A stretch of DNA of 16,842 nucleotides from Eggerthellales bacterium UBA948 (GTDB lineage: Bacteria; Actinomycetota; Coriobacteriia; Coriobacteriales; UBA8131), in contig DBCW01000089.1 of NCBI GenBank assembly GCA_002293265.1, positions 16,053 through 32,894 of the forward strand, given 5' to 3'. This document shows positions 1,712-16,790 of this stretch, in pieces. The position numbers and the translations under genes were made by a program. Numbering within the stretch: position 1 is the stretch's first letter; every line of letters starts with the position of its first letter. The notes beneath the pieces are model-generated. The model was not told the DNA's origin. It was given only the letters and a program-made list of their open reading frames with translations, and made no database searches.

Positions 1712-4015
1712 ATGATCGACGATATTTTTAAAGTTGAGACCGAAGAAGTTGATGATATCGCCAGTGCATATGATCAACTCATACAGCATGCCCAAACATA
1801 CCTAAACGACGCTGAGATGGATCAGATCAAGCATGCTTATGAGCGTGCGGAAAAAGCGCATGCCGGCCAAGAACGTAAAAGCGGCGAACCATTTATAAAT
1901 CATCCACTTCAGGTTGCCATAACTATCGCCGAACTTCATCTGGATGTAGACTCAATTACCGCAGCGATACTTCATGATGCCGTTGAAGATACCAGCATGA
2001 CTTTAGAAGACGTGAAAAAAGAGTTTTCTGACGAGGTAATGGAACTAGTTGATGGCGTAACCAAAATCACACGCATAGATATCGAGACTCTCTCTGAGCA
2101 ACAGGTCAATAACATCCGCAAAATGCTTTTAGCTATGTCTAAGGATATTCGTGTAATCATCATTAAGTTGGCTGATCGTTTGCATAATATGCGTACTTTG
2201 TACGCTTTGCGCGAAGATCGACGGATATTTAAAGCTCGCGAGACTATGGAAGTATTTGCGCCACTGGCTCACCGTCTTGGGATCAACTCGATAAAGTGGG
2301 AGCTTGAAGATCTGGCGTTCTTTTATCTTGAGCCGTCTCGCTTTCAGCAAGTGTCTCGTATGGTCAAAGACTCCAGAAGTGCCAGAGAAGAGTATCTAAG
2401 CTCGACAATTAAAGTGCTTGCCGGTGAATTTGATAAGATGAGGATATACGCCAAGATAACAGGGCGTCCCAAGCATTTGTACTCGATATATCAAAAAATG
2501 GCTCAACGAGGAAAAGACTTCTCGGAGATATATGATCTGATTGCGCTGCGTGTGATAGTAAACTCAATCTCTGAATGCTATTCCTGTTTGGGCGCTGTGC
2601 ATACCTTGTGGCCGCCGATGCCGGGGCGCTTTAAAGACTACATTGCCATGCCCAAGATGAATATGTATCAAAGCTTGCACACAACGGTCATAGGCCCTGC
2701 CGGTCGTCCTTTGGAAATTCAGATACGCACTAAAGAGATGCACCATATGAGCGAATACGGTGTAGCGGCTCACTGGAATTACAAAGAAGGCAAAAAGAAG
2801 ACTGCAGATGCACAGATAGATGAGCAGCTATCTTGGATCAGACAGATGATTGATTTTACTGATGACAATGTTGATCCGCGAGAGTTTATGGAGACCCTCA
2901 GACAAGGTCTAAACTATACAGAGGTCTTTGTTTTCACGCCTAAAGGTGAGGTTGTCAGATTGCGCGCCGGTTCTACACCGATTGATTTTGCTTATGCCAT
3001 CCACACCGAAGTAGGCAACCACTGTGTTGGAGCCAAGGTAAACGGCAGTATTGTGCCTTTGACTCATGAGTTGCAAATGGGCGATAGGGTAGAGGTGCTT
3101 ACGCTCAAGAACTCAAGCCCTTCACGTGATTGGCTAAATATCGTGCGAACTCCCTCGGCAAGGTCAAAGATACGCGCGTGGTTTACACGTGCCAGCAAGG
3201 ACGACGATATTGTGCATGGCCGCGATCTTCTTGCAAAGGAAACCCGCCGGCATGGATTGGGTATTTCCGGTTCACGTTCTTTGAAAGCTTTGCGAAGTGT
3301 CTCGGAGAGTCTGGGGCACAAAGATGTGGATGATCTGCTGGCCTTGATCGGAACAGGAAAACAAAGTGCCAGGCAAATTGCTAACAAGTTACTAAAAGAG
3401 TCTTCTGACCAAGTTGAAGTTGAAGATCATAATATTCCGGAAAAACTTCTTGGCATGGTCGCAAATAACTCATCTGCGCTTGAGCCTTTAAAGCCAAAAT
3501 CGACTAAAGCTTCCAGGGGTTCATCGGGAGTTGTAATAAAAGGTCTTGATGATGTTTTAGTACGTTTATCACATTGCTGTAACCCCGTGCCCGGCGATGA
3601 AATTATAGGTTTTGTTACGCGTGGGCGGGGAGTTACCGTGCATCGCGCTGATTGTCCAAATGCAAAAGCGCTTATGAGCAACATGGAGCGCATAATTAAA
3701 GTGGATTGGGCCTCTGATAATCAGGGGCGTGATGTATATAATGTCGAGGTATTTATTGAAGCTATTGACCGTTTGCGTCTCTATCAGGATGTGACCGTAG
3801 CGCTAGGAAGTAGCGGTGTAAACATACTCAATGCGACTATGTCCACCCATAAAGACGGAATTGTTGAGATGAGATATCTTTTTGAGGTAAGCGAAATTGC
3901 ACATATTGAGAAAATTCTTCGCGAACTCAGGGCTATAGATGGTGTAATAGATGCCCGACGCACTATGCCCGGCGAAGCTATTAGAAGAAAAAAGAGAGGC
4001 CTGGACGCTATATGA
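1712..4015 (+). CDS. rel: Bifunctional (p)ppGpp synthetase/hydrolase Rel (RSH family)
   Basis: This 767-residue protein has the full long-RSH layout. The N-terminal HD hydrolase has H64, H88-D89 with E92-D93 (LHDAVEDT) and D155 (KLADRLHNM). The synthetase domain (about 240-360) has RFKD at 306-309, MYQSLHTTV and EIQIRT at 335-340. A TGS domain follows (about 403-465), then a zinc-finger/CC region with HCCNPVPGDE at 621-630 and H644/C648, and a C-terminal ACT domain (about 676-750). The RxKD form of the synthetase motif, rather than ExDD, together with an intact HD site, marks a bifunctional enzyme that both makes and degrades the stringent-response alarmone. The C-terminal regions normally dock on the ribosome to sense uncharged tRNA. 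The gene starts 37 bases after the helicase stop behind a weak GTGAAAG ribosome site, and its stop overlaps the next start (ATGA), so it is probably in an operon. Confidence 0.97.
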   Translation: MIDDIFKVETEEVDDIASAYDQLIQHAQTYLNDAEMDQIKHAYERAEKAHAGQERKSGEPFINHPLQVAITIAELHLDVDSITAAILHDAVEDTSMTLEDVKKEFSDEVMELVDGVTKITRIDIETLSEQQVNNIRKMLLAMSKDIRVIIIKLADRLHNMRTLYALREDRRIFKARETMEVFAPLAHRLGINSIKWELEDLAFFYLEPSRFQQVSRMVKDSRSAREEYLSSTIKVLAGEFDKMRIYAKITGRPKHLYSIYQKMAQRGKDFSEIYDLIALRVIVNSISECYSCLGAVHTLWPPMPGRFKDYIAMPKMNMYQSLHTTVIGPAGRPLEIQIRTKEMHHMSEYGVAAHWNYKEGKKKTADAQIDEQLSWIRQMIDFTDDNVDPREFMETLRQGLNYTEVFVFTPKGEVVRLRAGSTPIDFAYAIHTEVGNHCVGAKVNGSIVPLTHELQMGDRVEVLTLKNSSPSRDWLNIVRTPSARSKIRAWFTRASKDDDIVHGRDLLAKETRRHGLGISGSRSLKALRSVSESLGHKDVDDLLALIGTGKQSARQIANKLLKESSDQVEVEDHNIPEKLLGMVANNSSALEPLKPKSTKASRGSSGVVIKGLDDVLVRLSHCCNPVPGDEIIGFVTRGRGVTVHRADCPNAKALMSNMERIIKVDWASDNQGRDVYNVEVFIEAIDRLRLYQDVTVALGSSGVNILNATMSTHKDGIVEMRYLFEVSEIAHIEKILRELRAIDGVIDARRTMPGEAIRRKKRGLDAI

Positions 4016-4659
4016 TAGTTGAGCGAGTTGAAGTAATGATATCTCCGGGTTTTACGGAGAATTGCTACATTATCAGTGAGGATACAAGCAAGGATTCTGC
4101 GGACGACAAAGTTGTTGTGGTCGATCCGGGTGCTGATGCTAAAAAAATCCTTGCAAAAGTGGGCAAGAGAAAAGTTGAAGCGATAGTTTTAACACATAGA
4201 CATTACGATCACATTGGAGCTCTTCGCGAAATTTATGATGCCACCGGTGCAGTAGTCATTGCTCACAAACATGACGCTGCAAGTATTTCCGGTGAAGAGC
4301 CTGACATTACCTCAAGCATGTTCAGCAAAGCAAAGTATGTACAAATTGACCGCATTGTTGAGGAAGGCGACATTATCTCTTTGGGGAATTCGCAGCTGCT
4401 TGTGATGCATACACCCGGGCATACGATTGGAAGCATGTGTCTGCTTGACATGAACAGCAAGGTTCTTATCGCAGGCGATACTATATTTTATCAGGCTGTA
4501 GGACGCACCGATCTACCTAGTGGAAGTGTCGAGCAACAACGAGGGAGCGTGCGTGCTTTGGCAAAATTACCTGACGATATTGTTATCTACCCCGGACATG
4601 ATGAAAATACATCCATAGGACATGAAAGAAAATTCGGTGTCTTATATGGTATTAATTAG
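4012..4659 (+). CDS. Metallo-beta-lactamase-fold hydrolase, glyoxalase II-like (YcbL type)
   Basis: The 215-residue protein carries every metal ligand of the glyoxalase II branch: THRHYDH (H62, H64, D66, H67), HTPGHT with H137, GDT with D156, and YPGHDENT with H196. It also has the GRTDLPSGS segment (164-172) typical of YcbL-like small hydrolases. The expected chemistry is binuclear-metal hydrolysis of a thioester such as S-lactoylglutathione or a related low-molecular-weight thiol ester; the actual substrate cannot be read from the sequence. It is shorter than classical GloB (about 250 residues), lacking most of the C-terminal helical domain, which is normal for YcbL. Its ATG overlaps the rel stop by four bases, implying translational coupling. 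A glyoxalase-II-like gene close to rel is also the arrangement in Mycobacterium tuberculosis. Confidence 0.9.
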   Translation: MIVERVEVMISPGFTENCYIISEDTSKDSADDKVVVVDPGADAKKILAKVGKRKVEAIVLTHRHYDHIGALREIYDATGAVVIAHKHDAASISGEEPDITSSMFSKAKYVQIDRIVEEGDIISLGNSQLLVMHTPGHTIGSMCLLDMNSKVLIAGDTIFYQAVGRTDLPSGSVEQQRGSVRALAKLPDDIVIYPGHDENTSIGHERKFGVLYGIN

Positions 4660-4668
4660 CGAGCAGTT

Positions 4669-6453
4669 ATGTATATAGCGATAGTGCAAAATAATCCTGT
4701 AGTTGGCGATATACGCGGCAACAGCGAACGAATCTTAGAGTCACTGGACTCGTTGATGAACAGTCTTTATCCTCCGGACTTGGTTATATTTCCGGCGCAT
4801 GCTTTAACGGGATCTCCTGTAAAAGGTTTAGAAACTTCTGATGCGTTTGCCGGCGAATGTTTAGCAGGCGCCCACAACCTCATTGCCAAAGCATCTTTAC
4901 CTACTTTGATAGGCACGATGATTCCGCAGCCTCTGGCTGATGAAATGGGATTCACTAATGAACCGGAGATTTTATACTGCAAAGACGGTGCCGGTGGAGC
5001 ACTTGGTTTTGTAGATGTTAACAACGATTGGCCTTATGATCAGTATGCGTCAAGCATTACTGTGTTGTTGGAAGGCCACACTGTAAGCATCCTGCAAGAC
5101 GAATACCCTGAAAACAATGACGATTTTTCTGAATGTGATGCAATAATATTGATGCTATCCAAAGAGTATCGTGGAACCAATACGATGTTTACGGCATCAT
5201 CACAAGTCTCATATATAAAAAGCATTGCCAAGAAAAATAATGCATGGGTGATCGTAGCAAACTTGGTCGGAGCACAAGATGCGACAGTATTTGACGGGGC
5301 AAGTTTGGTGGTCAATCAAAAAGGTGATGTGGTTGTTGCTGCAAAGCCATTTGAGGAAGATGTTATAAGTTTTAATATCAATTTTGATGTAGGAAAATCC
5401 CCGGATGCAACGAGTAGCAGTATCGAAGCTACTACAAATAATGCCGAGCAGGACTTGCTGCATATCGGCACACAAATTATTAAACCATTGTTGCCATACG
5501 AGGCTGATTGGAAAGCTTTGTGCTTATTTGTTAAGGACTATGTATCAAAAAACGGCTTCAGCGATGTCGTACTTGGATTATCCGGTGGACTAGACTCAGC
5601 TGTCACTGCCGCTATTGCATGTGATGCATTAGGTTCTGAACGCGTACACGGGGTTTTGATGCCTAGTGAAATCTCAACAGAAGAATCTTTGACAGATGCT
5701 AAAGAACTGGCAGAGCTTTTAGGTATTAAGACTTATGAGATTCCGATAAATAAAGCAGTTGCTGCTTTTGAGGATCTATCTATAGCTGCAATAGGCAACC
5801 CCGGCTCTGAATTGGCGCGACAAAACATACAATCCCGTATGCGCATGCTCATCTTGATGCATCTTTCAAATACGTATGGTTTCCTTCTACTCAACACGAC
5901 TAATAAGTCGGAATGTGCTATGGGTTACTCTACATTGTACGGTGATACTGCCGGAGCTATATCTCCATTGGGCAACATTTACAAGACAGATGTCTATGGG
6001 TTAGCAAGCTGGCGTAATGAACGATCGTTTGTGATACCGCAAAACTCCATAGACAAAGAGCCATCAGCAGAATTAAGCGTAGGGCAAAAGGACACAGACT
6101 CTTTACCACCATATGACATACTGGATCATATTTTACGTATGCATGTCGAAGAAGGTCTTGGTGTAGATCAAATATTGGAATATACTGCACACAATGCTTT
6201 TGCGCAGGCACTTACCAGTGATCTGGTGAAAGATGTATTAAACAAAGTAAAGAATGCTGAGTTTAAGCGACGCCAAGAACCTCTGGCGCCAACATTAGGT
6301 TATGTAGATATGAATGAAGATAGGAATTGGCCCGTGACAAATGGTTTCAATGACCGAGACGATTTGGTAGTGTCTGATTTTGACGCAGATAGCTACTTGT
6401 CAATGATTGAAAGCTGGAAGATGCCCGATGGATGGGACTTCCTTGCAAACTAA
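4669..6453 (+). CDS. nadE: NAD+ synthetase NadE, two-domain form with a degenerate glutaminase domain
   Basis: The 594-residue protein has the two-domain length of glutamine-dependent NAD+ synthetases. The C-terminal synthetase half is intact: the ATP-pyrophosphatase loop LSGGLDSA (304-311), NKSECAMGYSTLYGDTAG (412-429), PSAEL (465-469) and FKRRQ (532-536). It should amidate deamido-NAD to NAD+ using ATP. The N-terminal nitrilase-fold half (about 1-240) is recognisable (NNPVVGDIRGN, NLVGAQD, VFDGAS), but its catalytic triad is gone. The usual FPELALTG is FPAHALTG, placing Ala43 at the Glu position; the Lys-containing KxxLPNY stretch is GFVDVNNDWPY; and the ICED cysteine motif reads ILQD (141-144), with Leu142 at the Cys position. 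The enzyme is therefore predicted to use free ammonia or a separate ammonia donor. It starts nine bases after the hydrolase stop behind a weak ribosome site, and its 3' end overlaps the transporter gene. Confidence 0.93.
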   Translation: MYIAIVQNNPVVGDIRGNSERILESLDSLMNSLYPPDLVIFPAHALTGSPVKGLETSDAFAGECLAGAHNLIAKASLPTLIGTMIPQPLADEMGFTNEPEILYCKDGAGGALGFVDVNNDWPYDQYASSITVLLEGHTVSILQDEYPENNDDFSECDAIILMLSKEYRGTNTMFTASSQVSYIKSIAKKNNAWVIVANLVGAQDATVFDGASLVVNQKGDVVVAAKPFEEDVISFNINFDVGKSPDATSSSIEATTNNAEQDLLHIGTQIIKPLLPYEADWKALCLFVKDYVSKNGFSDVVLGLSGGLDSAVTAAIACDALGSERVHGVLMPSEISTEESLTDAKELAELLGIKTYEIPINKAVAAFEDLSIAAIGNPGSELARQNIQSRMRMLILMHLSNTYGFLLLNTTNKSECAMGYSTLYGDTAGAISPLGNIYKTDVYGLASWRNERSFVIPQNSIDKEPSAELSVGQKDTDSLPPYDILDHILRMHVEEGLGVDQILEYTAHNAFAQALTSDLVKDVLNKVKNAEFKRRQEPLAPTLGYVDMNEDRNWPVTNGFNDRDDLVVSDFDADSYLSMIESWKMPDGWDFLAN

Positions 6454-12988: not shown

Positions 12989-14077
12989 TTAAGCATTGCC
13001 ATAACCCCTATCTAAAATCGCAGCAGCCTCTTTCACATCTTGCTTGAGCGGCTTGACGTATTTATTGTAAGTGGTCGTTATTGTCGTGTGTCTGAGTATC
13101 TTTGATACGTGCTCAATTGGCACTCCTGCTTTAATGGCAGCAGTTGCAAAACAATGCCTAAGAGACTGGGCGGTAATCTCCGGCAGCTTGTGCTTTTTGA
13201 CGAACGCAACCATATGCCTGTTTAACTGATGCGTCTTCATACGTCCTTGTGTATGGACGCAAACCGCACCTATTCGCAAGCTATCACCTTTGATTTCTTT
13301 CAACTGCTTAGCGGCATACTCAGACATCGGAATAACGTCTTTAGATTGCTCTGTCTTGGTGTCGCCAAGTTCATAGCCGTTTTCAATTCGGACGTATCCT
13401 TGTCTGATTGTGATCTCGCGGCTCTTGAAATCAATATCTTTCCAGTCCAACCCCAAAATCTCACCCGGACGTAGTCCAAAACAAAAGCCCAAGACAAGCA
13501 CTGGGCGAAGTGTAGGAGTAGCCAAATCAATAATACGCTGATGTTCTTTAAGGTCGCTTATGACAGCACCCTCGTGATTACGGTCTGTATCCTTTTTTGG
13601 AGGTAGTTTAAAACGACCTGCCGCCGGGTTAGTTTTAATAAGCTCCATCAGTACGGCTTCACCTAAGATTGCTCGCAGCGTGTCTCTGAAATTCTTGGCT
13701 GTCTTATTTGTTGCACATCTTGAGAGGTGACGTTGAATTTCAAGGCGGTTGATTGCTGCAACTTCTCGGTTTCCAAATGCTGGCATTAGGTGGTTTTTGA
13801 TGATGGACTTATAGATACGTAGGGTAGTCTTGCGTAAGGCTTCCTGCTTAGCTGGCATATAATAGATATTTACGAACTCTTGAAATGTGATTCTATCGCT
13901 ACGTCCGTTGGATACAGATTTTAGAGACTCATATTCTGAATGCGCTCGCTTGGCTTCACGCATTGTCTTGCACGTTTTAGTGCGCCTGTCTGGCTTGCCA
14001 TTAAGCTTATAGCCAACCTCTACTTCCACGCGATAGCGGATTTCCCCTGATTTGGTTTTATAGGTTGAAATTGACAT
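12989..14077 (-). CDS. Tyrosine-recombinase integrase of the mobile element
   Basis: From the chosen start the protein has 362 residues: an arm-binding N-terminus (1-55, SGEIRYRVEVEVGYK...), a SAM-like core-binding domain (about 64-150) and a catalytic domain (about 170-360). Catalytic residues visible are R203 in FGLRPGEILGL, K241 in DTKTEQS, R307 in QSLRHCFAT, H330 in ILRHTTITTT and the nucleophile Y340 in YNKYVK. The first histidine of the usual HxLRH box is Gln304. The enzyme would integrate and excise the element at the tRNA-end att site nearby. I use the ATG at 14077 because GGAGGGG (- strand of 14080-14086) precedes it; an upstream in-frame start at 14149 would translate through a perfect hairpin and adds residues unlike the family. 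Confidence 0.93.
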   Translation of the reverse strand: MSISTYKTKSGEIRYRVEVEVGYKLNGKPDRRTKTCKTMREAKRAHSEYESLKSVSNGRSDRITFQEFVNIYYMPAKQEALRKTTLRIYKSIIKNHLMPAFGNREVAAINRLEIQRHLSRCATNKTAKNFRDTLRAILGEAVLMELIKTNPAAGRFKLPPKKDTDRNHEGAVISDLKEHQRIIDLATPTLRPVLVLGFCFGLRPGEILGLDWKDIDFKSREITIRQGYVRIENGYELGDTKTEQSKDVIPMSEYAAKQLKEIKGDSLRIGAVCVHTQGRMKTHQLNRHMVAFVKKHKLPEITAQSLRHCFATAAIKAGVPIEHVSKILRHTTITTTYNKYVKPLKQDVKEAAAILDRGYGNA

Positions 14078-14084
14078 TGCCCCT

Positions 14085-14135
14085 CCGTTCACGACAACGG
14101 GACAATCTGCGAACATGAAACACATTCGCAGATTG
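14085..14135 (-). promoter_or_regulatory. Two hairpins in the integrase leader, the nearer one touching the ribosome site
   Basis: CAATCTGCGAA (14103-14113) and TTCGCAGATTG (14125-14135) form a perfect 11-base-pair stem with an 11-base loop. Next to it CCGTT (14085-14089) pairs with AACGG (14096-14100) around a six-base loop, and this second stem overlaps two bases of the integrase ribosome site (14080-14086). They lie between the DUF2283 stop and the integrase start. No U-tract follows the large stem, so control of integrase translation or of message processing is more likely than termination. Confidence 0.55.
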
Positions 14136-14149
14136 CGCATTTGTTTCAT

Positions 14150-14419
14150 CTACGCAACTTTGAAGCTAGGAAACTCAATAGTTAAAGGTTGGTCAGTTTT
14201 AATATCAAGTTTTGATGGTAGATCGCCATAAACTTCCTTGAAGTCGAAAATCTCAATTCCTGCAAATTCACCATCTGGATAACCAAATAACACGGAAATG
14301 TTGGGAGATATATCTACAACATCAGTGCAGGAATCACCATAATCACCGTACTTTACATAAAGCGTGTCAGTGATGGGATCATATGAAATCTGTTTTATGT
14401 CTATGCTTATCGTTTTCAT
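14150..14419 (-). CDS. DUF2283-domain protein
   Basis: A protein of 89 residues with the DUF2283 pattern: YDPITDTLYVKYGD (12-25), then a run of strands DVVDISPNISVLFG and the closing GEFAGIEIFDFKEV (50-63). Family members are small beta-rich proteins with no known function, often found near toxin-antitoxin genes and mobile elements; some sit beside DUF4258 partners, which are not seen here. I use the ATG at 14419, preceded by AAAAAAGG eight bases upstream. The frame stays open to an ATG at 14485 that has no ribosome site. It lies between a 58-residue protein and the integrase on the same strand. Confidence 0.7.
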   Translation of the reverse strand: MKTISIDIKQISYDPITDTLYVKYGDYGDSCTDVVDISPNISVLFGYPDGEFAGIEIFDFKEVYGDLPSKLDIKTDQPLTIEFPSFKVA

Positions 14420-14542
14420 AAGGTGATGCCTTTTTTCATATGCACCAGTTTTGAGAAAGAGCCAATCGTACTTGTTCTTTGCCATGATACCACAGGTGAC
14501 GGCTCGGTTTTAAGACTTCTTCTATTTCTTGGATATCTTCTG

Positions 14543-14719
14543 TTAAGAGACTTTCGCGCGTCTCCCCAAGCTCGCTGCTATCTCCATACGTAATTGCGCT
14601 TTCCTGCGCTCTTGAATCTGTTGATCCGTCTTCTTGGAGTTCTGTTTCCGAAGATCGTTCAGCGCTTGGGGGTCGTAAAGCCCGAAACTCGGAATTATCC
14701 CTCTCATTAGCGTTTTCAT
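14543..14719 (-). CDS. Small basic protein of unknown function (58 residues)
   Basis: I do not recognise this protein. It reads MKTLMRGIIPSFGLYDPQ, followed by a charged, probably helical segment rich in Lys, Arg and Gln (NDLRKQNSKKTDQQIQERRK) and ends GRRAKVS, so it is strongly basic. It is supported mainly by its signals: AGGAG five bases before the ATG at 14719 and a good TATACT -10 box upstream. A GTG six bases earlier is too close to the ribosome site. A 102-codon frame overlaps it on the same strand but is Ser/Glu-rich and less protein-like. The gene lies between HicB and the DUF2283 gene. Confidence 0.5.
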   Translation of the reverse strand: MKTLMRGIIPSFGLYDPQALNDLRKQNSKKTDQQIQERRKAQLRMEIAASLGRRAKVS

Positions 14720-14745
14720 GATCACTCCTTTTTCTGTGTTCCAAT

Positions 14746-14751
14746 AGTATA
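14746..14751 (-). promoter_or_regulatory. Probable -10 box for the 58-residue protein
   Basis: On the - strand TATACT lies about 20 bases before the AGGAG site of the small gene, a five-of-six match to TATAAT. No good -35 is seen at the right distance (nearest is CAACAA). The AT-rich stretch at 14752-14785 would lie in the spacer and upstream. Confidence 0.4.
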
Positions 14752-14824
14752 GCCTCTTCTCTTTTTAAATTGTTGCAGCTTTATTGATTTTGCAGGTAAC
14801 GGTTTGTTGGTACTTTGGTGACTT

Positions 14825-14859
14825 AGCGAGGCTGTATCTTGGTGGATGGTAGCCTCGCT
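14825..14859. terminator. Hairpin terminator directly after hicB
   Basis: AGCGAGGCT (14825-14833) and AGCCTCGCT (14851-14859) form a perfect nine-base-pair stem with a 17-base loop, starting five bases after the hicB stop. The T-rich run (TTGTTTATA) follows on the + strand side, while on the - strand the stem is followed by AAGTCACC. It is thus better as a + strand terminator, although its position suggests it also ends the hicAB message. Confidence 0.55.
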
Positions 14860-14863
14860 TTGT

Positions 14864-15184
14864 TTATATCCTTGATACAAGCAACTGGTTTATTGATACG
14901 CCTTGCTCCGCTGCTTCAATAGCGATTCGCTGATGTTGTTCTTTAGGCATTCTCAAACGAATGTTGCCGGAGTATGGTTTTTTCGTGAACGGTACGGGAA
15001 TAACATCGCCGTCTTTTTCCATTTCATTAAGTAGGAATCTTACCAATTCCACCATCCCGTTAAAGGCTTCTGCTTGAGTGTCTTCAACGCTTGATAACCG
15101 TGGAAATTCAGCAACGGTAGCTATGTAGGCTTTGTCTTCTTCTGACCAAAAAACACGGTACGTATAATCTTCTGCTTTATGCAT
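14864..15184 (-). CDS. hicB: HicB-type antitoxin
   Basis: A protein of 106 residues with the HicB partial-RNase-H-like fold at the N-terminus (YTYRVFWSEEDKAYIATVAEFPRLSS, with TQAEAFNGMVELV) and a C-terminal DNA-binding tail SGNIRLRMPKEQHQRIAIEA ending in SINQLLVSRI, a ribbon-helix-helix pattern. HicB neutralises HicA and represses the hicAB promoter. The start is set at the ATG at 15184 because GGAGG (15194-15198) is nine bases upstream; the ATG at 15193 in the same frame abuts that site and cannot use it. The gene overlaps the end of hicA by eight bases, so translation is coupled. It would repress the inverted-repeat operator in front of hicA. Confidence 0.88.
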   Translation of the reverse strand: MHKAEDYTYRVFWSEEDKAYIATVAEFPRLSSVEDTQAEAFNGMVELVRFLLNEMEKDGDVIPVPFTKKPYSGNIRLRMPKEQHQRIAIEAAEQGVSINQLLVSRI

Positions 15185-15428
15185 CGCTTTCATCCTCCAA
15201 CCTGTCTATGGCACTTAAAACCTGCTTAACTTGATACGATTTTGCATAGCCACCTTTATCTTGTATGTTTACCCATGGGTCACCTTGCCATGGTGTTTTA
15301 AATACATGGTGCGAACCTCTAACTTTTGGACTACCAAAATAGTGAGTACAAACCCTTAAACAGTCTGAAAAGCGTACATTGTTTGGGCTGTTTCTCATTG
15401 CCGCCAAGATGTCTTTTACTGATGCCAT
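15177..15428 (-). CDS. hicA: HicA-type toxin (mRNA interferase)
   Basis: A protein of 83 residues with the HicA double-stranded-RNA-binding-like fold: SVKDILAAMRNSPNNVRF at the N-terminus, VRGSHHVFKTP (36-46) containing the conserved GSHH box with the catalytic-type His40/41, and GGYAKSYQVKQVL (59-71). HicA cleaves mRNA and tmRNA in a translation-independent way and is held inactive by HicB. The ATG at 15428 is preceded by AAAGGAG at four bases. At 83 residues it is somewhat longer than the shortest HicA proteins of about 60 residues. It is the first gene of the hicAB pair, as usual, and is transcribed from the promoter at 15443-15478. Confidence 0.88.
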   Translation of the reverse strand: MASVKDILAAMRNSPNNVRFSDCLRVCTHYFGSPKVRGSHHVFKTPWQGDPWVNIQDKGGYAKSYQVKQVLSAIDRLEDESDA

Positions 15429-15442
15429 AAGTCTCCTTTGTC

Positions 15443-15478
15443 TTGCCTTATGGTACCATATATAACACCATTTGGCAA
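15443..15478 (-). promoter_or_regulatory. hicAB promoter embedded in an inverted-repeat operator
   Basis: On the - strand TTGCCA (15478-15473) and TACCAT (15455-15450) are 17 bases apart, a plausible sigma-70-type pair. The same bases form an inverted repeat: TTGCCTTATGGT (15443-15454) and ACCATTTGGCAA (15467-15478) match at ten of twelve positions. The perfect 12-base palindrome TATGGTACCATA (15449-15460) adds a further half-site. This spacing of TATGGT/ACCAT half-sites fits binding by HicB dimers and autorepression. Confidence 0.65.
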
Positions 15479-15485
15479 GTTTAAC

Positions 15486-16103
15486 TTACTTATCGGTGTG
15501 TGCACGTATATACCGTTTCATCTGTGCGTCAAATTCTTTGTCACGCAAGTATTTATCTTTTCTTTCTTTGATTTCGTCATCAATAGCTCTACGTTCTTCT
15601 GCTGACGGATAGTCATTTTTCAAAACTCTTGTAACATACCTTGACCAAAATATTTCATTCGGTATTTCGTCTTTATTGGCTGGTACATTTTCCTTGTCGA
15701 TGCACCCATATCTTTCAAGGTCGCCCAATATCGTCTTGTACGTCTCTACTTCTTCCACCGTTCCACTTAGTTTTTCTTGGATGTGTCTCTCTCGTGTCTC
15801 TTGTGTAAGGCTGTCCAGAAATGTAAGTTCGTCTTGTCGTTCTTTGGCTTCTTTGTCTGTTTGTATGTGGAGTGGTGCTCCAACCTCTTTGATAATAGCT
15901 CGCATCTTTTTGGTGTCTTCATTGTTGCTCAAAAACATCTCTATTAGCATTCCGATTGATATGCCAAAGGCAAGAAATGAGATAGACCAAAACGCAACAA
16001 CCGCAGGGTTATATGACGTTGCGGACGAACTCAAAACTATGGCAGCGACGATAGAAACCGCACCGACGATAATGGTAGCTATTATTCCTTTTCTGTTCCC
16101 CAT
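15486..16103 (-). CDS. Two-helix membrane protein with a long charged cytoplasmic domain, linked to the repressor
   Basis: I do not recognise a named family. From the chosen ATG the protein has 205 residues: two membrane helices (about 7-25, IIATIIVGAVSIVAAIV, and 34-58, PAVVAFWSISFLAFGISIGM), a short loop between them, then about 145 highly charged residues with helical and coiled-coil character (KERQDELTFLDSL, EERRAIDDEIKERKDKYLRD). The ATG at 16103 begins two bases after the repressor stop, so the two genes are translationally coupled; an earlier in-frame ATG at 16139 lies inside the repressor gene. Membrane proteins in this position next to a prophage repressor are often lysogenic-conversion or superinfection-exclusion factors, which is an inference here. 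The 3' end lies only eight bases from the hicAB operator. Confidence 0.72.
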   Translation of the reverse strand: MGNRKGIIATIIVGAVSIVAAIVLSSSATSYNPAVVAFWSISFLAFGISIGMLIEMFLSNNEDTKKMRAIIKEVGAPLHIQTDKEAKERQDELTFLDSLTQETRERHIQEKLSGTVEEVETYKTILGDLERYGCIDKENVPANKDEIPNEIFWSRYVTRVLKNDYPSAEERRAIDDEIKERKDKYLRDKEFDAQMKRYIRAHTDK

Positions 16104-16105
16104 AT

Positions 16106-16771
16106 CTACCGTCGTCTCTGCCAAGGTATGACGGCACACACCATCTTGCCCAACACCTTGAAGTACGGAGCGTCCGGGTCATCGGATGCAAGAAAACGTA
16201 CACGATGCCGGTCATTCGTGCTGTCGGGTTTTAGGAACACCCCCTCGGGCGCGAACTTCACATGTTTCAGCGTCGCGTCATCGCCGTTGACGATGACGGC
16301 CGCGACATCATTTTCAGTAAGCTCCGTCTCTGGGTTCTTGATGGGTGCTATAGCTACGTAGGTACCGTCCTGCACGATCTGATTCATCGAATCTCCTGAC
16401 GCGACGACGTAAAAGACATTGGGGTATTCCTCAAGTATATCCGGCGGTATCCAGTATTTTTCATCGGATTGCTCTATCGCTTCGCGTTCTTCACCAGCAG
16501 CAATGCGCCCTACTACTGTGGCATATGTATATGATGGTACAGCGGTTATGCGCCGCCCCTTTTGGGAAGCCAGACCGAACGTATCGGAAGTGAGGTCGTC
16601 CATAGTTATCCCGTAGTGGTCTGCTATATTTTTTATGTAGTTTACTTTGGGTTGTGCCCCTTGCTTCCATTGTGTGATAGCAGATGGTGAAACACCTGCA
16701 ATATCCGCTAACGTATCCTGTGTAATGTCATGTCTGACCATCAATACTTCGAGGTTATCAAAAAGAGACAT
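16106..16771 (-). CDS. Prophage CI-like repressor: XRE helix-turn-helix plus S24 (LexA-type) peptidase domain
   Basis: The protein has 221 residues. Residues about 17-38 form the helix-turn-helix (TQDTLADIAGVSPSAITQWK). A linker leads to the cleavage site in GRIAAGEE (Ala92-Gly93), and the S24 domain has Ser128 in ASGDSMNQIV and Lys169 in ATLKHVKF as the Ser-Lys dyad. It should keep the element silent and self-cleave when RecA is activated by DNA damage, inducing excision. The ATG at 16771 has AGGAG eight bases upstream, preferable to a GTG at 16780 overlapping that site. The G+C content is uneven: about 56 % by hand count over 16141-16320 inside the S24 part, against about 36 % over 15541-15720 in the neighbouring gene. 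The next gene is two bases downstream. Confidence 0.93.
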   Translation of the reverse strand: MSLFDNLEVLMVRHDITQDTLADIAGVSPSAITQWKQGAQPKVNYIKNIADHYGITMDDLTSDTFGLASQKGRRITAVPSYTYATVVGRIAAGEEREAIEQSDEKYWIPPDILEEYPNVFYVVASGDSMNQIVQDGTYVAIAPIKNPETELTENDVAAVIVNGDDATLKHVKFAPEGVFLKPDSTNDRHRVRFLASDDPDAPYFKVLGKMVCAVIPWQRRR

Positions 16772-16790
16772 AATAATCACTCCTAGCTAA

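Follow-up and report, generated by a model that had tools for sequence, protein, structure and literature searches.

The nadE gene

The stretch of DNA analysed here (the window) comprises 16,842 nucleotides of the metagenome-assembled genome (MAG) of Eggerthellales bacterium UBA948 (assembly GCA_002293265.1, contig DBCW01000089.1, positions 16,053 to 32,894 of the forward strand). It carries nadE, which encodes a two-domain NAD+ synthetase whose N-terminal glutaminase domain has lost all three catalytic residues (Table 1). The MAG is 83% complete and gene copies may have been missed. Among the matches listed, the closest organism-named relatives of the source are 'Coriobacteriales bacterium' MAGs. 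The order is used here in the sense of GTDB, including the Eggerthellaceae (the Eggerthellales are now split off in the NCBI taxonomy). Its families carry the labels f1 to f10 of the genome search, f1 being that of the window.

The frame at 4669–6453 (+) is open over all 594 residues. The protein scored 210.3 bits against TIGR00552 (NAD+ synthetase; cut-off 63.65) and 397.9 bits against the NCBIfam equivalog NF010588 of the glutamine-dependent enzymes (NadE-Gln), which is under the cut-off of 479. The PF00795 match (E 1e-7) was limited to residues 184–240.

The catalytic residues of this glutaminase family are Cys, Glu and Lys, according to PMC6946656. As a reference panel for the live triad, 20 NadE sequences from sister orders of the same class were aligned with the window protein; they retain Glu in 20/20, Lys in 20/20 and Cys in 19/20. 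The alignment upheld the original prediction at the first two sites: the Glu of FPELALTG is Ala43 (residues 41–48, FPAHALTG) and GALGFVDVNNDW (residues 110–121), with zero Lys, stands where K-x-x-LPNY would be expected. The Cys is likewise lost, residues 141–147 (ILQDEYP) holding none. Its column, originally given as Leu142, is ambiguous by 1–2 residues and may equally be read from the alignments as Gln143 or Asp144. The synthetase half was found intact, as had been claimed, with SGGLDS (305–310), NKSE (412) and PSAEL (465) all kept, and the predicted structure models the N-terminal half as the expected nitrilase fold.

Table 1. Features of nadE and its upstream neighbours in the window
Feature	Position	Strand	Evidence
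nadE, 594 aa, two-domain NAD+ synthetase with pseudo-glutaminase domain	4669..6453	+	PF02540, E 9.1e-71
Pseudo-glutaminase (nitrilase-fold) domain, residues 1–240	4669..5388	+	
Ala43 codon at the catalytic Glu site	4795..4797	+	Alignment with 20 sister-order NadE
Residues 110–121 (GALGFVDVNNDW) replacing the Lys motif KxxLPNY	4996..5031	+	Alignment
Residues 141–147 (ILQDEYP) replacing the Cys motif ICEDxW	5089..5109	+	Alignment
Linker, residues 241–275	5389..5493	+	Low confidence, predicted local distance difference test (pLDDT) <50 at 244–265
Synthetase (PP-loop) domain, residues 276–538, with SGGLDS, NKSE and PSAEL	5494..6282	+	
Extended C-terminal loop, synthetase–glutaminase interface element	6283..6357	+	RNWPVTNGF at residue 552
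31-residue C-terminal tail ending WDFLAN-COOH	6358..6450	+	Block pLDDT 49–69
RelA/SpoT-type (p)ppGpp synthetase/hydrolase	1712..4015	+	PF13328, PF04607, TGS, ACT
Metallo-beta-lactamase-fold hydrolase (MBL)	4012..4659	+	PF00753, E 1.1e-35

Conservation of the loss

The same substitutions were sought in relatives. Glu, Lys and Cys were retained in none of 24 aligned loci of the window family, and E, K or C occupied the triad columns in 0 of the best 120 of 5048 homologues below the search threshold (a residue was present at the Glu, Lys and Cys columns in 113, 108 and 116 of these, with 7, 12 and 4 gaps). SGG[ILV]DS was present in 119 of the 120, the remaining one having SGGLDC. In a second control panel of 43 other NadE (P0144–P0186), drawn from a different search, E, K and C were present in 42, 42 and 39. 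A one-off oddity or a sequencing error was excluded, as the triad is missing from all 120 homologues listed. The loss that had been predicted for one gene thus stands; it is not a peculiarity of that gene, since NadE of this type showed the same state in each family read within the order.

The residues of the window protein itself were then checked for a relocated triad. Cys64, Cys104 and Cys156 of the N-terminal domain are conserved in 32/90, 64/91 and 11/92 close homologues and in 0/24, 1/24 and 1/24 distant homologues with a dead domain. The best conserved of nine Lys residues, Lys165, is kept in 69/93 and 1/24, respectively. Glu63, Glu98 and Glu100 are well conserved (85/90, 84/91 and 89/91 close homologues). 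With no well conserved Cys or Lys in the domain, a shift of the triad to other positions within it was rejected.

The catalytic Cys was lost by alignment, with the Glu and Lys columns filled, in one sister-order sequence (L090 of genome G109) and in P0145, P0150, P0153 and P0180. The column holds Gly in four of these and Asp in P0180, and all five lie outside the clade with dead domains.

Constraint and structural comparison

The dead domain evolves at 1.43 times the rate of the synthetase domain, compared with 1.47 for live glutaminase domains, and omega, the ratio of nonsynonymous to synonymous substitution rates (dN/dS), was 0.096 for the dead domain in a same-genus pair. Gly48, Gly201, Asp204, Gly210 and Gly219 are conserved at 99–100% in close homologues, as in live enzymes; LGF at 112–114 (where the Lys motif used to be), Glu100 and Glu63 are conserved specifically in the family. 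No internal stops were present in the window-family matches. The dead domain is not decaying and its sequence is under constraint.

The model of the window NadE aligns with 3n05 over 493 residues with a root-mean-square deviation of 2.1. An extended C-terminal loop that contacts the glutaminase domain is, with helices alpha9 and alpha18, among the NadE-Gln signature elements listed in PMC3376133. It is retained in the dead two-domain relatives and missing in 7/7 single-domain f2 sequences scored. The original suggestion that the domain survives as a scaffold or regulator would fit both the rates and the retention of this loop.

Forms in related genomes

Three fates were observed among the relatives: the domain is kept dead, is shed, or both halves are dead beside a second NadE. 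Dead glutaminase with live synthetase was found in f1, f4, f6, f7, f8 and f9, in the f3 genome G034 and in the f2 genome G194. In f2 (Eggerthellaceae) the domain has been shed: 23/24 loci of this NadE type have no such domain in any reading frame of the sequence retrieved. G194 carries, in addition to its dead-domain protein, a further two-domain NadE with triad motifs (L097). The closest counterpart of the G118 protein (f2) comes from Eggerthella.

Other NadE types, long or single-domain of the SGGKDS type, are scattered over the order. In f2 the SGGKDS type occurs in G088 (L106), G184 (L105) and G270 (L107) and a long NadE in G106; further cases are G008 (L053) and G042 (L044). This scatter suggests repeated replacement of nadE. 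G042 also has the start of a two-domain relative, cut by the contig end (L045).

Both halves are dead in f10 (Coriobacteriaceae; Collinsella and Enorma) and f5 (Atopobiaceae; Olsenella). The triad, SGGxDS and NKSE are missing in all 23 listed proteins (P0121–P0143), and the Glu, Lys, Cys, SGGxDS, NKSE and PSAEL patterns are absent from 80/80 named loci (L116–L195, the best 80 of 113 confirmed), which span Collinsella, Enorma, Olsenella, Atopobium and relatives. In 74/80 a ruvC motif follows on the same strand, at most 328 bases further downstream (median 109). Further doubly dead loci are L038, L043, L047, L050 and L054.

An order-wide profile census covered 197 genomes, 194 of them at least 90% complete with at most 5% contamination. 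The doubly dead profile matched at E 1e-60 or better in 58/58 f10 and 60/62 f5 genomes (G104 gave no match and G287 a weak one). The profile also matches related live NadE in the E 1e-60 range (G034, G004), and double loss is presumed for those f5 and f10 genomes that were covered by the census but not read individually. All 120 f5 and f10 genomes and the f2 genome G106, but no others of the 197, encode a long NadE that exceeds the NF002730 cut-off. Five long NadE were read; the Cys and SGGxDS motifs were found in 5/5, the Glu pattern in 4/5 and the Lys pattern in 2/5.

For the doubly dead protein, omega of the two halves was 0.011 and 0.035 in one close f5 pair (L038/L100) and 0.33 and 0.64 in another (L047/L054); both halves are constrained in these pairs. 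The NadE fold is preserved in its model (mean pLDDT 82.9, top PDB match 3n05), and the interface WP motif is mostly lost. Two examples still passed the Pfam NAD_synthase cut-off.

Phylogenetic analysis

In a tree of the synthetase domain, the 44 sequences of the order (dead, shed and doubly dead) were separated from the 20 sister-order sequences with a Shimodaira–Hasegawa-like approximate likelihood ratio (SH-aLRT) support of 100. In a 62-row tree that also took in other single-domain enzymes from the class, and whose root is weak, the shed and dead groups fell together (fork 96), the shed group lying beside most of the dead ones with f3 and f7 outside (85). Constraining the shed and dead rows to one clade was not rejected by the approximately unbiased test (p-AU 0.746) and gave a likelihood better than that of the free search. 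Three SGGKDS rows (stem 6.1) fell inside the Eggerthellaceae single-domain group of this tree, which was taken as long-branch attraction. The simplest reading of the tree is that a fused enzyme lost its N-terminal domain. The shed form of the Eggerthellaceae is at odds with a published scheme that has no later fission.

C-terminal tail

The low-confidence tail ends (window 6433–6450) in a near-invariant motif, F/I-L/M/S-x-Asn-COOH. A C-terminal Asn was present in 93/96 closest homologues (P0001–P0096), most often as F-L-x-N, and the other three look cut or frameshifted at the end. The ending F/I-S-x-N occurs in 21/23 listed doubly dead proteins; 79/80 named doubly dead loci end in the tail motif and the remaining one runs off its contig. 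Elsewhere a C-terminal Asn was found in 0/20 sister-order sequences, 2/24 distant dead homologues and 2/43 controls. The tailed families are f1, f3, f5 and f10; the f4, f6, f7, f8 and f9 rows are without a tail.

In a survey of 100 loci (771 open reading frames, ORFs, from a simple gene caller) the motif was carried by 61/66 NadE-like ORFs and by 0/705 others, and it was absent from the five long NadE read. There was thus no sign of a proteome-wide tag in these neighbourhoods. Given its low confidence in the model, the simplest guess is that the tail is a partner-binding peptide. A link to sliding-clamp or cell-division peptides was considered and abandoned, as no evidence spoke for it. That the tail docks in the old glutamine pocket, Asn resembling glutamine, is neither supported nor excluded by the monomer model, in which confidence in the tail is low.

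Nitrogen source and gene neighbourhood

The original prediction allowed for ammonia from another protein, which found no support in the genome of the window, where the sole PF00795 match is nadE itself. Neither a stand-alone nitrilase nor a second full nadE was found in this incomplete MAG, in which a copy could have been missed; the PF02540 search gave four further matches, all partial (45–78 positions). Among the 33 genomes of the window family, six had PF00795 matches above 60 bits outside nadE and 26 others had none exceeding that score; AmtB occurred in 16 and PII in 21. One genome (G007) contains two dead-type NadE copies (C4 and C86); with 7% contamination, it may represent two strains.

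The MBL frame overlaps the relA frame by 4 bases and ends 9 bases upstream of nadE, and the three genes probably form one operon. The order helicase–RelA–MBL–NadE recurs, among 20 larger loci compared, in both f1 (L074, L075) and both f4 loci (L067, L069); the relA–MBL–nadE order was absent from the other 16. At the far end of the window (12989–16780, − strand) lies a mobile-element-like block with an integrase, a DUF2283 protein, a HicB-type protein and a Cro/S24 repressor. A small ORF beside the HicB-type protein (15177–15428), without a Pfam match, is presumably HicA-like.

Discussion

We consider the window protein to be an ammonia-dependent NAD+ synthetase with a retained pseudo-glutaminase scaffold, the triad having been lost in an ancestor of the order and the descendants having met three fates. 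Based on sequence comparison and modelling, we give this a probability of roughly 0.78. The PP-loop domain, judged by its intact motifs, would adenylate nicotinic acid adenine dinucleotide with ATP and amidate it with free ammonia. Glutamine hydrolysis by the nitrilase domain is presumed gone because all three catalytic residues are lost. The dead domain may serve as a structural or allosteric scaffold, docking to the synthetase by way of the extended C-terminal loop. Distribution and tree would be explained most simply by a single loss of the triad in an ancestor of the order (the Coriobacteriales of the genome search, with the Eggerthellaceae). Descendants would then have kept the dead domain or, in the Eggerthellaceae, shed it; in the Coriobacteriaceae and Atopobiaceae, with a second long NadE at hand, the synthetase site would have died too and the whole protein been kept.

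Several points weigh against this. The use of ammonia by the window protein is itself deduced from its sequence, and neither AmtB nor PII was found in the MAG, of which 83% is present. One genome of the window family (G008) has a long canonical NadE instead. Equal relative rates leave the role of the domain unspecified; in the single f7 row (L040) domain and loop are eroded, and dN/dS near 1 in distant Atopobiaceae pairs would at face value oppose strong constraint, although these pairs are 34–47% identical and their estimates, being saturated, were not relied on. Most of the internal branching within the order is poorly supported in the trees. Single-domain NadE of f11, f13 and f14 (other orders of the class) adjoin the order with a support of 92, and therefore the point at which the triad was lost, and whether triad or domain went first there, are not fixed.

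The dead domain could instead be a neutral relic on its way out, with the Eggerthellaceae as the end point. The 23 f2 loci without it, the dead copy still present in G194 and the erosion in f7 are what such decay would leave, but the rate shared with live domains, the low omega, the invariant Gly and Asp residues, the kept interface loop and the frames free of stops make this improbable. It is slightly less probable still that a separate glutaminase protein docks on, or replaces, the dead domain to deliver ammonia. Two-subunit NAD synthetases with separate glutaminase subunits do exist (PMC3376133), and six family genomes encode a candidate; the window genome does not, nadE being its sole PF00795 match, which makes a partner unlikely here, and the dead domain already fills the interface. 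A relocated active site, built from different Glu, Lys and Cys residues within the domain, can hardly be credited: the three conserved Glu residues would suit it, but they have no well conserved Cys or Lys to work with, and Cys is missing from all 116 rows with a residue at its column.

Another possibility, doubtful at present, is that the pseudo-domain senses a ligand or partner and that the Asn-ended tail is a docking peptide, linking NAD synthesis to, for example, the upstream (p)ppGpp enzyme. This does not exclude a scaffold role. It would account for the family-specific LGF, Glu100 and Glu63, for the terminal Asn shared by close homologues and doubly dead proteins, for the absence of the tail motif from the other ORFs, and for the relA–MBL–nadE order in the f1 and f4 loci. 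The tail, however, is of low confidence in the model and is missing from the rows of five families, the remaining 16 loci did not show the gene order, and the RelA link is one of gene context. A related, still tentative proposal, which we regard as a little more likely, is that the old glutaminase loss left the NadE of the order as a protein of two parts with a regulatory or scaffold role, which in four families gained an Asn-ended tail for docking, and that this second job kept a pure pseudoenzyme next to ruvC in Collinsella and the Atopobiaceae after a replacement NadE had arrived.

With its fold kept, its catalytic residues lost and its sequence constrained, the window domain is a pseudo-glutaminase, attached to an NAD+ synthetase by score and motifs. 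Architecture (fused nitrilase and PP-loop domains), fold, synthetase motifs and interface loop are those of short-type NadE-Gln (PRK13981/NF010588; 5kha, 4f4h, 3n05), from which the window protein differs in lacking the Glu–Lys–Cys triad, in its score under the NF010588 cut-off and in its additional C-terminal tail. It shares the synthetase domain and the presumed nitrogen source with single-domain ammonia-dependent NadE (NadE-NH3) but, as a 594-residue protein of two domains, is not one of them, as it retains both the nitrilase domain and the interface loop, which are missing from single-domain enzymes (PMC3376133). Human CPS1 likewise keeps an inactive fused glutaminase-like domain, with the catalytic Cys changed to Ser and ammonia taken from outside (PMC4655335). 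CPS1 belongs to another glutaminase class (triad His–Glu–Cys) and its Cys alone is reported to be replaced, whereas here all three residues are, and the NadE relatives also include a shed and a doubly dead form. The doubly dead proteins of Collinsella, Enorma, Olsenella and Atopobium are homologous to the window NadE along both domains and share its triad loss and Asn-ended tail; they differ in the further loss of SGGxDS, NKSE and PSAEL, in the coexisting long NadE and in the adjoining ruvC. By this analogy the pseudo-glutaminase itself would be a CPS1-like variant, the more surprising part being the series of forms found in nature, most of all the doubly dead tailed protein. No published report of the finding was located in the open-licence papers searched.

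Taken together, these NadE form a natural series of grades of a single fused amidotransferase, from the live enzyme through the half-dead one to forms with the domain shed or both halves dead. A noncatalytic glutaminase domain can match a live one in relative constraint. Automatic names such as 'NAD+ synthase (glutamine-hydrolysing)' are likely to be wrong for the family of the window, and a protein without an assigned job is flagged in nearly every sampled genome of the Coriobacteriaceae and Atopobiaceae.
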